Shown: in pieces, positions 51,389 through 55,729 of the stretch
Layout: each line of letters begins with the position of its first letter
How positions within the stretch are numbered: position 1 is the first letter of the stretch
Source: Burkholderiales bacterium
GTDB taxonomy: Bacteria > Pseudomonadota > Gammaproteobacteria > Burkholderiales > Burkholderiaceae_D
NCBI GenBank assembly: GCA_016200895.1
Contig: JACQDX010000132.1
Coordinates: forward strand, 1-64,000
Reading direction: 5' to 3'
Length of the DNA: 64,000 nt
Translations under genes and position numbers: made by a program
The notes under the pieces: model-generated
Databases searched by the model: none
Seen by the model: only the letters and a program-made list of their open reading frames with translations
Told to the model about the DNA's origin: nothing

Positions 51389-51684
51389 TTAAAAAAGTAT
51401 AACGGCGCAATGCTGAGGCGGATGATTTTAACTTCCCATGTTTGCGGGAGTTCATCACAATTCATTCAGCTTTGCAAATGCCTTATTGAATACTACGCAC
51501 AACTTGGAAAATTCACGTTCCTCGTGCACTTTGAACGGTTTTTGATCACCGTTTTTTCTTTATCAATATTTTCCTTTAATTTACAGTTTTTCCATATGCC
51601 AGGTACAACGTTGTGCCGGACTCAAAACAAGTTTGGCACGAACAAGCTGGAGTAAATTTTTATCATTCAAACGTCGGAGTGTCC

Positions 51685-52377
51685 ATGAATGTAGTCGAAT
51701 TAGGCTTTGCCTTTTTAGCAGGTTTGGCAATGATTGCCAGTCCTTGCGTTTTAATGTTGTTACCGATCTTGCTTAGCACCAGCTTAGAGCAGCGCAGCCG
51801 CCCGGTCTTTATCATTCTTGGTTTTGTTACCGCTTTCAGCACCGTTGCATTATTCTTTGCGAAAGGTGTGAGTATCGCTGGAAGTTCCCCAGCAGTCTTG
51901 CGCCAGGTTGCCATTATATTACTGGCGATATTTGCAGTGCTGATGCTATCTCCAAAGTTGTATGCACGCATGAGTACTAGGTTGCAAGGCGTTTCCGATT
52001 TTGGCATAAAACTCAGCCCCAACCCCAGTGCTGGTAAAGTCGGCGGCTTTGTCATTGGCTTAAGTTTGGGCGCAGTTTGGACACCATGTTCGGGGCCAAT
52101 CCTAGCTTCCATTATTACGCTGATTGCTGGTTCCAGCAACATTACATGGGGCCTCAGTTTACTAGTGGCATTTGGACTTGGAACAGGCTTGCCCATGTTA
52201 TTAGTGGCCTATGGCGGTAAAACAATTAGTAACCGCCTGGCTATCATAGCCCGTAATGGCAATGCTGTACGACGTGCACTTGGTGTGGTGATGCTGATTC
52301 TGGTCGCCTATATGCAGTGGCAACAAATTGACGAACTCCCTGGATGGCTCGCGAATCGGTATCAAGGCTGGCTATGA
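51685..52377 (+). CDS. Cytochrome c biogenesis protein, CcdA/DsbD TM-domain family
   Basis: LGFAFLAGLAMIASPCVLMLLPILLS...KVGGFVIGLSLGAVWTPCSGPILASIITLIAGS; paired Cys in TM segments. Confidence 0.9.
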   Translation: MNVVELGFAFLAGLAMIASPCVLMLLPILLSTSLEQRSRPVFIILGFVTAFSTVALFFAKGVSIAGSSPAVLRQVAIILLAIFAVLMLSPKLYARMSTRLQGVSDFGIKLSPNPSAGKVGGFVIGLSLGAVWTPCSGPILASIITLIAGSSNITWGLSLLVAFGLGTGLPMLLVAYGGKTISNRLAIIARNGNAVRRALGVVMLILVAYMQWQQIDELPGWLANRYQGWL

Positions 52378-52423: not shown

Positions 52424-53509
52424 TTACATAAACCTGACAGCGTAGACTGGTGGCAAATTGCCTGATATTTGATACCAGTCATCACCCTCGTTCTCACTCG
52501 CCCATAAATTGCCGGTAGTCGATGCCATCAGCAGATTTTTGCCATTTTCTGAAGCAGCAAGGCCATGGCGATAAACCAGATCATAGCAATCTTGCTGCGG
52601 CAAGCCATTTCGCAATGACTCAAAAGTCTTGCCGCCATCCCTGGTACGCGTAACACTCATGGCACCATGCAAAGGCACCCGTTTTTGATCAGCCACGGCA
52701 GGTACAAACCAAGCGGTATTGGGGTCACGCGGATGTGCAGCCACTGCGAAGCCAAAATCTGGAATACCTTCAGGCAAATGCAACTGCTGCCAGCTCACCG
52801 CATCATCTTCACTGCGCCAGATGCCATTGTGATGCTGGCACCATAAAACATGGCTGGCGAATTTGCTGCGTGCGATCAGGTGAGGGTCCTGGATATTTTG
52901 CTTGTCTGCCAGATCAGGCGGCATATAAGCGGCATGCATACCGGAAGCGGATAATACCCAGTTCTTACCACCATCTTCAGTTTTCCAGGCACCACCACAG
53001 GAGATGCCAAGTAAAATATGCTGAGGATTGCGCGGGTTGACACAGATCGAATGTATGCCAGGCGTATCATAACCACCACCCATCCATTCCTTGCGCTCTT
53101 CCCTGTCCCACAGACTGCGCACCAACTCCCAGCTATTGCCACGATCAGTTGAACGGAACAAGCCACCTGGCAAGGTACCGGCCCATAACACACCTGGCTC
53201 TTCACTGCCACCCGTTTCCAGCGACCAGATTGCCTTCAGCTTCCATTCGACATCGTCGTCTGTCCTGGCATGTTCAGGGTAGGCAGGCACGGCTACCTCC
53301 GTCCAATCATCACGACCTTCATCGCGCCTGTGCAGCTTGACTCCAAAGTGCCCGAGGTTCAATGCCGCATACACAGCGCCATCGCGTTTGTCGTGCAGGC
53401 ACATGCTCAGGGGTTCACCCAGAAAACTGATCTGATCCAGTTTCCAGCCATCAGGCATATGGATCAGTTCAAACAAACCCTTACGGGTCGCTACCATTGC
53501 TTTCATCAT
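52424..53509 (-). CDS. BNR/VPS10-type beta-propeller (glycosyl-hydrolase-like) protein
   Basis: Repeats such as GLFRSTDRGNSWELVRSL, GAWKTEDGGKNWVLSASG, GIWRSEDDAVSWQQLHLPEG, LWASENEGDDWYQISG. Confidence 0.9.
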   Translation of the reverse strand: MMKAMVATRKGLFELIHMPDGWKLDQISFLGEPLSMCLHDKRDGAVYAALNLGHFGVKLHRRDEGRDDWTEVAVPAYPEHARTDDDVEWKLKAIWSLETGGSEEPGVLWAGTLPGGLFRSTDRGNSWELVRSLWDREERKEWMGGGYDTPGIHSICVNPRNPQHILLGISCGGAWKTEDGGKNWVLSASGMHAAYMPPDLADKQNIQDPHLIARSKFASHVLWCQHHNGIWRSEDDAVSWQQLHLPEGIPDFGFAVAAHPRDPNTAWFVPAVADQKRVPLHGAMSVTRTRDGGKTFESLRNGLPQQDCYDLVYRHGLAASENGKNLLMASTTGNLWASENEGDDWYQISGNLPPVYAVRFM

Positions 53510-53778
53510 TAACCTCCTGAAAGAGCCTGCAAGATATAGACCTGACTATTTGAACCTAAAGGGTCGCGCAAGCCACTGCGCTGCATGATACGCTTGCCAT
53601 CGATAAAAACCACTACATGAAAACGCAGGTCACCTTGTTCATCAAGAATATAGCTGCGTAAAGTAGGGTTGGCCTGAAATGCTGCTTCCAATGCATCACG
53701 CAAATTATTGGCCACAGTTTCCACCTCAGGAACTTCAGTAAAGCGACTGAGTTGCTGGGTGAAAATCAGTCTGGCCAT
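53509..53778 (-). CDS. MoaD/ThiS-family (ubiquitin-like beta-grasp) protein with C-terminal Gly-Gly
   Basis: 89 aa; RLIFTQQLSRFTEVPEVETVANNLRDALEAAFQANPTLRSYILDEQGDLRFHVVVFIDGKRI...VYILQALSGG. Confidence 0.88.
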   Translation of the reverse strand: MARLIFTQQLSRFTEVPEVETVANNLRDALEAAFQANPTLRSYILDEQGDLRFHVVVFIDGKRIMQRSGLRDPLGSNSQVYILQALSGG

Positions 53779-53780
53779 GA

Positions 53781-54248
53781 TTATGCCCAGTCCTTATAAG
53801 GATGTTTAAGCAAATTTGCATTTGCGTAACGCCTGTCGTGACTGACTTCTTCACCCAGCCAGCCCGGACGTTCAAATTGCTGCAACTCGGATTCAAGCTC
53901 GACCTCGGCCACGATAAGGCCAAGATTATCACCGATGAATTCATCCACTTCCCAGATCAAACCAGCAAGAGGAATGCGATAGCGTGTTTTTTCTATGAGA
54001 GGTTGCTGGCAGACTGTGTCCAGCAAGATTTGCGCATCAGCCAGTGGGATAGGATATTCCCATTCTCCACAGCTAATGCCGGTTGACATACCCTTGATGG
54101 TCAGCATCGCACGCTCAGCTTCTATGCGTACCCGCACGATACGACCGGGGTCAGAACAAATATAACCCTGGCGCAGAAATGTGCCCTGCCCTTGCTGCTT
54201 GAAATCCTGATTCATGACAAGGAATTTGCGTTCAATTTCTACGCCCAT
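53781..54248 (-). CDS. CYTH domain protein
   Basis: MGVEIERKFLV (ExExK), RVRIEAERAMLTIKG, EVDEFIGDNLGLIVAEVELESE; start trimmed. Confidence 0.92.
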   Translation of the reverse strand: MGVEIERKFLVMNQDFKQQGQGTFLRQGYICSDPGRIVRVRIEAERAMLTIKGMSTGISCGEWEYPIPLADAQILLDTVCQQPLIEKTRYRIPLAGLIWEVDEFIGDNLGLIVAEVELESELQQFERPGWLGEEVSHDRRYANANLLKHPYKDWA

Positions 54249-54275
54249 TACTACTCCGATCAATAAATACCGGAA

Positions 54276-55400
54276 TTATGCACTCAATGTAGCCAAAATC
54301 GGTTGCAACATCGCTTCACCCAGCTTGATACTGCGGGAACCATCCCAACCCACGTCAGCATCCGGCAAATTGGCATTATCCTTGAATGGCAATTCCAGCG
54401 TCAGTGATACACACTTGAAAGTGTGACCAATATACTTGGACGCCAGCTTCAGCACATCTTCATTATATTTCGATGCTTCGTAGCCATATTTCGTCTGGAA
54501 GTCAGGGCTTGCCAGACAAAAGCTGTCAACAAAATGCTGTTGTTCTTGCATCTGTTTTTCACTGAAACCTGCCAGCATTTCGCTACCGGCAACAAAGATG
54601 TAAGGCAAAGCTTCATCACCATGGATATCAAGGAAAAGATCGCAGCCAGTTTCATGGATCTTATTCTTGACATAATACACTTCCGGGCTGGTTTCCAGCG
54701 ATGGTGCCATCCATTCACGGTTCAGGTTGGCGCCAGCGGCATTAGTACGCAGGTTGCCACGCACAGAACCATCCGGGTTCATGTTCGGGACAATATACAC
54801 TACCGCTTTTTCCAGTATGCTGCGTGCAATTGGGTTGGATGGGTCTAGCAAGGCATTCAAAGTGCCTTCTACCAGCCATTCAGCCATAGTCTCACCTGGA
54901 TGCTGACGCGCTATGATCCAGACTTTCTTTTCAGCTGCAGGGTCACCAACGACGATCAGGTTCAGATCGCGTTCATCGACGGTATTACCGAGATCTTCAA
55001 CACGGGCGACAGAAGAATTCTCTACCCCACCCAGCAAGGCCAGGTGGCGCTCCCATGTGTAAGGCTCAAAATAAGCGTAGTACACGCTGTCACGCTCAGG
55101 CGTATGGCGTATGGTCAGAACCTTGCCATCAAACTCGGTATCTACGCGAAACCAGTTGGCTCTGTCATAACTTGCTACTGCGCGATAGCCTTCCCAGCCC
55201 TTGGCATAGGTAGCATCTCCTGCATTGAGAATACGCATGATAGTCTCTTGCCCACGTGCGCCCTGCAAGCGAAAATGAAACCATTGCCAGATATCAGCAT
55301 GTGAATCCTTGCGCAAATTTAAATCGATAGCCTCCGCCTGTTCCGCCTTGACGACTTCGATCGCTCCCGCGTCGAAATTCTGACTGATTTTAATTGTCAT
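54276..55400 (-). CDS. M14 zinc carboxypeptidase, cytosolic-carboxypeptidase type
   Basis: WQWFHFRLQGARG; WIIARQHPGETMAEWLVEG (HxxE), NMNPDGSVRGNLRTNAAGANLNREW, DLFLDIHGDEALPYIFVAG. Confidence 0.92.
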   Translation of the reverse strand: MTIKISQNFDAGAIEVVKAEQAEAIDLNLRKDSHADIWQWFHFRLQGARGQETIMRILNAGDATYAKGWEGYRAVASYDRANWFRVDTEFDGKVLTIRHTPERDSVYYAYFEPYTWERHLALLGGVENSSVARVEDLGNTVDERDLNLIVVGDPAAEKKVWIIARQHPGETMAEWLVEGTLNALLDPSNPIARSILEKAVVYIVPNMNPDGSVRGNLRTNAAGANLNREWMAPSLETSPEVYYVKNKIHETGCDLFLDIHGDEALPYIFVAGSEMLAGFSEKQMQEQQHFVDSFCLASPDFQTKYGYEASKYNEDVLKLASKYIGHTFKCVSLTLELPFKDNANLPDADVGWDGSRSIKLGEAMLQPILATLSA

Positions 55401-55693: not shown

Positions 55694-55729
55694 AAAAAAG
55701 CTTACAAATTCCGGTTTGTAAGCTTTTTT
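55694..55729 (+). terminator. Rho-independent terminator after tRNA-Pro
   Basis: AAAAAAGCTTACAAATTCCGGTTTGTAAGCTTTTTT. Confidence 0.9.

Follow-up and report, generated by a model that had tools for sequence, protein, structure and literature searches.

Sulfur carriers and other ubiquitin-like (Ubl) proteins normally serve MoaE, ThiG, CysM, BexX or the tRNA-thiolation ATPases as their partners. In the CysO–CysM–Mec system of Mycobacterium tuberculosis (3dwg), the partner is the pyridoxal-phosphate enzyme CysM, whereas the BexX–CysO system of Amycolatopsis orientalis (4n6e), which acts in 2-thiosugar biosynthesis, uses a carrier drawn from primary metabolism. A third reference point is provided by the modifiers SAMP1 and Urm1. 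Here, we describe a gene pair that couples a Ubl protein ending in Gly-Gly with a beta-propeller of the BNR/Asp-box type, found as the downstream half of a four-gene cluster in a Burkholderiales bacterium (assembly GCA_016200895.1, contig JACQDX010000132.1, positions 1 to 64,000 of the forward strand; this 64,000-nucleotide stretch is hereafter the window). The host genome measures 5.9 Mb and is assigned to Undibacterium on the basis of named relatives with this locus. To our knowledge, no propeller partner of a sulfur carrier has been known before, and no publication on a Ubl–propeller pairing was found in the open-licence literature.

The Ubl gene (53509..53778, minus strand) encodes a beta-grasp protein of 89 amino acids whose C-terminus, ...LQALSGG, is confirmed in the window sequence as initially read. 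The propeller gene (52424..53509, minus strand; 361 amino acids) follows with a 1-nucleotide overlap (TAATG), its candidate starts being ATG 53509 and ATG 53506. The Ubl gene adjoins the propeller in all 80 of 80 named loci, and within a sample of 399 Pseudomonadota genomes, 28 encode the propeller, 17 of them with a same-strand adjacent Ubl in either gene order; the earlier proposal that the propeller is the partner of the Ubl protein is thus upheld by linkage. The pair is widespread: it also occurs in Actinobacteria and is plasmid-borne in Pseudomonas aeruginosa, Roseateles (Mitsuaria) and Burkholderia; the plasmid copies are annotated as a MoaD/ThiS family protein and an exo-alpha-sialidase or hypothetical protein. 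In 36 diverse loci, the pair has no recurrent third neighbour apart from antisense frames and near-relative synteny. The exact Gly-Gly C-terminus, a hallmark of E1-activated carriers, is kept in 105 of 107 distinct Ubl–propeller pairs, contrary to the loss in orthologues that the initial annotation had named as refuting its proposal; the two exceptions are a frameshifted copy (locus L108) and the Nonomuraea protein (L143).

The codons of this tail carry a second role. In the window they read TCA GGA GGT (TAATGATG), which places AGGAGGT (53512..53518, minus strand; TCAGGAGGTTAATGATG) directly before the propeller start, in position as a perfect Shine-Dalgarno for that gene. Among 83 distinct loci where the propeller starts at most 15 nucleotides from the Ubl end, 81 use GGA for the first glycine of the tail, against 0 of 10 where it starts farther away and 0 of 12 where the propeller gene comes first (0 of 22 together); the loci are related, so that a Fisher value overstates their independence, and the split is still almost complete. 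Elsewhere in these Ubl genes, GGA accounts for 19 of 377 Gly codons, and the MoaD and ThiS genes of the host end in GGG GGC and GGT GGT. At the level of sequence, the Gly-Gly codons thus double as the Shine-Dalgarno of a close-set propeller gene. That the Gly-Gly is kept solely for this purpose was rejected, since the 22 loci without that role keep the Gly-Gly nonetheless, and for the same reason the residues are under protein-level selection too. Likewise, Gly-Gly is retained in 12 of 13 pairs with the propeller gene first, where its codons cannot be the propeller's Shine-Dalgarno.

Against the ThiS profile PF02597 the Ubl protein scores 17.0 bits, under the 22.5-bit cut-off, and against the NCBIfam SAMP1 profile (NF041918) 39.1 bits, under the cut-off of 60; the term ThiS-like used in the initial annotation therefore holds for fold and profile and not for curated family membership. 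CysO is its nearest profile match (3dwg, E 4e-9), with further matches to the BexX-bound CysO (4n6e, E 7e-9) and to SAMP1. An AlphaFold2 model (predicted local distance difference test score, pLDDT, of 90) returned SAMP1 as the best fold match in Foldseek (3po0, template-modelling (TM) score 0.80), and CysO with a TM score of 0.84. Beta-grasp fold and CysO homology together identify the protein as a CysO-type carrier at the superfamily level. With CysO–CysM–Mec it shares this profile and fold resemblance, the Gly-Gly end and, putatively, the use of an unlinked, shared E1, and differs in having a beta-propeller in place of CysM and no recurring Mec/JAMM or cysteine gene. As in BexX–CysO, a CysO-type carrier stands with an unrelated partner, whereas the present carrier and its partner are encoded as a dedicated, coupled pair and the partner has another fold. 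The likeness to SAMP1 and Urm1 lies in the structural match and the Gly-Gly tail; unlike them, the Ubl protein has no linked deconjugating enzyme and, as said, falls below the curated SAMP1 cut-off.

The propeller belongs to the same family as Reut_B4987 (3b7f), to which it aligns over its full length at 33% identity (PDB profile E 4e-136). Its AlphaFold2 model (pLDDT 90) likewise finds 3b7f as the best Foldseek match over the whole length, with a TM score of 0.90, and the only Pfam profile that passes its cut-off is PF15902 (Sortilin-Vps10, 40 bits). Reut_B4987 is a structural-genomics structure without an assigned function, and the function of 3b7f is given as not known (PMC2716378). Almost every full-length homologue, whether or not a Ubl gene adjoins it, retains six residues: H153, H210, Q225, H227, R277 and R314. 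Two others vary, H54 being replaced by Trp or Phe in several lineages and D208 frequently by Cys. In the model, H153 and H210 would begin inner strands, and H54 and H227 would lie in the turns between strands B and C, a placement that suggests a common face.

The interpretation we favour, while holding it tentatively, sees the Ubl protein as a carrier that probably bears sulfur and works, through its tail, for the propeller, the two upstream genes being bystanders. Under this interpretation, the general MoeB-type E1 of the host would activate the Gly-Gly end, with a thiocarboxylate as the likeliest product. The Ubl protein would then dock on the cytosolic propeller and pass the activated group from its tail into the pocket of conserved His, Gln and Arg residues, as MoaD supplies MoaE and CysO supplies CysM. 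Both proteins would be made together, because the Gly-Gly codons also form the ribosome-binding site of the propeller. The fuller claim, that this amounts to a new carrier system in which the activated tail of a CysO-like Ubl protein feeds a propeller enzyme with a His-rich pocket and its codons are reused as a ribosome-binding site, is possible, if doubtful. As to the activating enzyme, whole-genome searches found one MoeB-type E1, unlinked to the cluster, and a second ThiF-family gene elsewhere (contigs C81 and C42, respectively, with MoaD on C116, ThiS on C67 and the window on C49), which places these four genes outside the window, where the initial annotation had noted no E1-like, molybdopterin or thiamine gene; a dedicated nearby E1 was rejected, as none is linked in the loci compared. 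In mycobacteria, the shared MoeZR activates both MoaD and CysO (PMC3227635), and by analogy activation of the Ubl protein by the host MoeB is plausible, though not certain.

Several observations weigh against this interpretation. An E1 can be specific, as the mycobacterial MoeBR does not activate CysO (PMC3227635), and use of the host MoeB is accordingly not assured. The geometry of the pocket is deduced from the order of strands in a predicted structure. No CysM, Mec/JAMM or sulfur gene recurs beside the pair in the 36 diverse loci. In the phylum sample, 10 genomes of family f73 have a propeller without an adjacent Ubl gene, as do Rhodobacterales plasmids and a Streptomyces plasmid; such solitary propellers (loci L127, L129, L131-L139, L142, L144 and L145) mostly keep the pocket residues except H54, so that the pocket works without a linked Ubl gene at least in those lineages. 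Finally, the Nonomuraea Ubl protein (L143:6105-6389) stands beside a propeller and ends in PALA, without Gly-Gly.

Much of this evidence would also suit a Ubl protein bound non-covalently to the propeller as a structural or regulatory subunit, its tail plugging or positioning the pocket and never being adenylated or thiocarboxylated. The loci compared link no E1 and no sulfur gene to the pair, the solitary propellers retain the pocket, and the Nonomuraea protein stays paired despite its altered end, all of which fit such a subunit; the near-universal exact Gly-Gly end, including in those pairs where a Shine-Dalgarno role is impossible, argues against it, and we consider this alternative unlikely while giving it real weight. 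A poorer account, and one we think distinctly improbable, makes the Ubl protein a SAMP- or Urm1-like modifier of target proteins, with the propeller as a target-recruiting or Ubl-binding factor. Propellers are often protein-binding platforms, and the SAMP1 fold match and the near-hit of 39 of 60 bits agree with this account; the pair, however, comes without an E2 or JAMM protease and without any recurring third gene, PADLOC recognizes no known Ubl defence component (Bil, or cap2/3 of the cyclic-oligonucleotide-based antiphage signalling system, CBASS), and the invariant His, Gln and Arg residues suggest a chemical site over a plain scaffold.

Upstream of the pair lie an M14D cytosolic-type metallocarboxypeptidase (54276..55400, minus strand; 374 amino acids), which is the first gene of the cluster, and a CYTH protein resembling NeuTTM (53781..54263, minus strand). 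Open reading frames, Pfam matches and measured junctions confirm four minus-strand genes with near-zero spacing at these positions. The CYTH and Ubl genes are 2 nucleotides apart, and the gap between M14 and CYTH is 27 nucleotides from the CYTH ATG 54248 or 12 from TTG 54263; the ATG is likely to be the start, because GGAG precedes it. The initial annotation had joined all four genes in one Ubl or sulfur-carrier pathway, of which the Gly-Gly Ubl protein paired with a propeller stands, whereas the inclusion of M14 and CYTH is not supported. M14 and CYTH lie beside the propeller in 10 of the 80 named loci, all Undibacterium-like, and in the remaining 70 neither is found within 6 kb; outside Undibacterium, only the Ubl–propeller pair is kept while M14 and CYTH vary, the pattern that the initial annotation had itself named as refuting its proposal.

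Of 146 family genomes, 77 have both M14 and CYTH, and in 71 of these the two are adjacent in the order M14–CYTH; they lie within 40 nucleotides of each other in 66, with a median gap of 10 nucleotides, and overlap by 4 or 1 nucleotides in 12 of the 71. The propeller occurs in 42 of the 146 and stands beside M14–CYTH in 2 of the 42, both Undibacterium, which marks M14–CYTH as a separate pair and lends no support to CYTH as part of the pathway. Among 60 relatives, M14 and CYTH are side by side in most Undibacterium, whereas the Ubl and propeller genes are found in nine only, together and in the same place; within the genus they are thus jointly present or absent while M14–CYTH stays. The same order of all four genes recurs in about 10 further Undibacterium-like genomes or metagenome-assembled genomes (MAGs), and the arrangement is not a chance one, though all copies descend from a single event. 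In the propeller tree, all four-gene loci form one clade (support 97/94), and on the M14 tree their distribution is scattered and requires 4 changes of state, a combination that favours a single joining followed by losses. The simplest history suggested by these comparisons is that two independent two-gene modules were joined once, in the ancestor of Undibacterium, into one transcription unit, and that the Ubl–propeller module was later lost as a unit in Undibacterium. Since order and tight spacing are kept in the Undibacterium-like genomes, co-transcription of the four genes is likely.

A four-component pathway, in which M14 would trim the Ubl protein or its adducts and CYTH would supply a triphosphate-linked step, might draw on that retained order and spacing wherever Undibacterium-like genomes hold the Ubl–propeller pair, and on a Mycobacterium peptidase that cleaves CysO-Cys adducts (PMC3227635). 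Against it stand the derivation of all four-gene loci from one event, the 70 of 80 pairs without M14 or CYTH nearby, the family-wide conservation of M14–CYTH without the pair, and the properties of the Ubl and M14 proteins described below; we regard it as very improbable and, on the neighborhood statistics and the single propeller clade, as largely refuted.

The M14 protein is a full-length M14D enzyme, with Pfam matches to PF18027 (139 bits) and PF00246 (67 bits) and a PDB profile match to 3k2k and 4b6z (E about 1e-153). Its cytosolic carboxypeptidase N-domain, zinc ligands and catalytic site are in place, and it resembles BcCCP and PaCCP (4b6z, 4a37) in retaining all of the BcCCP active-site residues compared (His171, Glu174, His268, Tyr315 and Lys330), differing from them in its coupling to a CYTH gene. 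The basic Lys330 pocket of BcCCP was proposed to bind glutamate (PMC3940198). Because an S1' lysine suits an acidic C-terminal residue, M14 is a poor candidate for trimming to Gly-Gly, and the Ubl protein, being encoded in its mature form, needs no trimming; M14 as a Gly-Gly processing enzyme, as first suggested, was rejected on both grounds. The CYTH protein (PF01928, 56 bits) is closest in the PDB to NE1496/NeuTTM (2fbl/3typ, E 3e-15), a tripolyphosphatase, and shares with it the CYTH domain, the EIERK motif and the aligned Tyr/Lys dyad, which makes it a putative NeuTTM-type, tripolyphosphatase-like enzyme; it differs from NeuTTM in its coupling to M14. The M14D–CYTH coupling was seen in genomes G529, G460 and G488 and in about 70 family genomes, with a 4-nucleotide overlap in some, and no publication on it was found in the open-licence literature.

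The database names exo-alpha-sialidase and glycosyl hydrolase would make the propeller a conventional glycoside hydrolase, which is scarcely credible: it has a distant profile and fold similarity to the GH74 xyloglucanases, yet it reaches no glycoside hydrolase family cut-off (glycosyl_F510_1955 lies far below its own), its invariant His/Gln/Arg set is neither the catalytic Arg triad of sialidases nor the catalytic Asp pair of GH74, its N-terminus (MMKAMVATRKG) is unlike a signal peptide, and the function of 3b7f is itself listed as not known. A known defence system was rejected, as PADLOC gave no match for any of the four genes, and a phage origin was rejected too, the propeller being present in no phage record.

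Around the cluster and its relatives, further features were recorded. A strong, symmetric terminator-like hairpin with T-runs on both strands (55694..55729, no strand assigned, identified by consensus match only) lies upstream of M14 and is a possible upstream boundary of the operon. On the other side, a DsbD-like thiol-disulfide membrane protein (51613-52377) is encoded convergently with the cluster, 46 nucleotides from the propeller end; no such gene was seen near the Ubl–propeller pair in the related loci searched. Six loci (L028:10483-11727, L018, L022, L036, L041 and L161) have an acyl-CoA dehydrogenase-like frame no more than 6 kb from the pair, possibly by chance or shared ancestry. Broken copies were also met: the Ubl frame is interrupted in Janthinobacterium psychrotolerans (L108), and CYTH is split into two frames in a Betaproteobacteria MAG (L040). 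A separate Ubl family (f57 and neighbors, L149-L154), present in about 60 genomes, has a single further residue after Gly-Gly (C, R, S or G among the sequences read), a tail that looks as if it needs C-terminal processing; the loci examined showed no propeller close by, and the family was set aside as a different Ubl protein.

Present in Proteobacteria, in Actinobacteria and on a plasmid of Pseudomonas aeruginosa, the combination of a Ubl protein with a dedicated propeller points to an undescribed reaction or mode of regulation. For the orphan structure 3b7f, whose relatives are misnamed sialidases in databases, the pairing with a Ubl protein offers a testable lead, and the M14–CYTH pairing is a new lead for the bacterial cytosolic carboxypeptidases and their substrates. 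The reuse of the tail codons shows, cleanly and in a form that can be counted, a single sequence under both protein and translation constraint; if the proposed carrier role is true, the same six bases would specify the tail's chemistry as well as its partner's translation.

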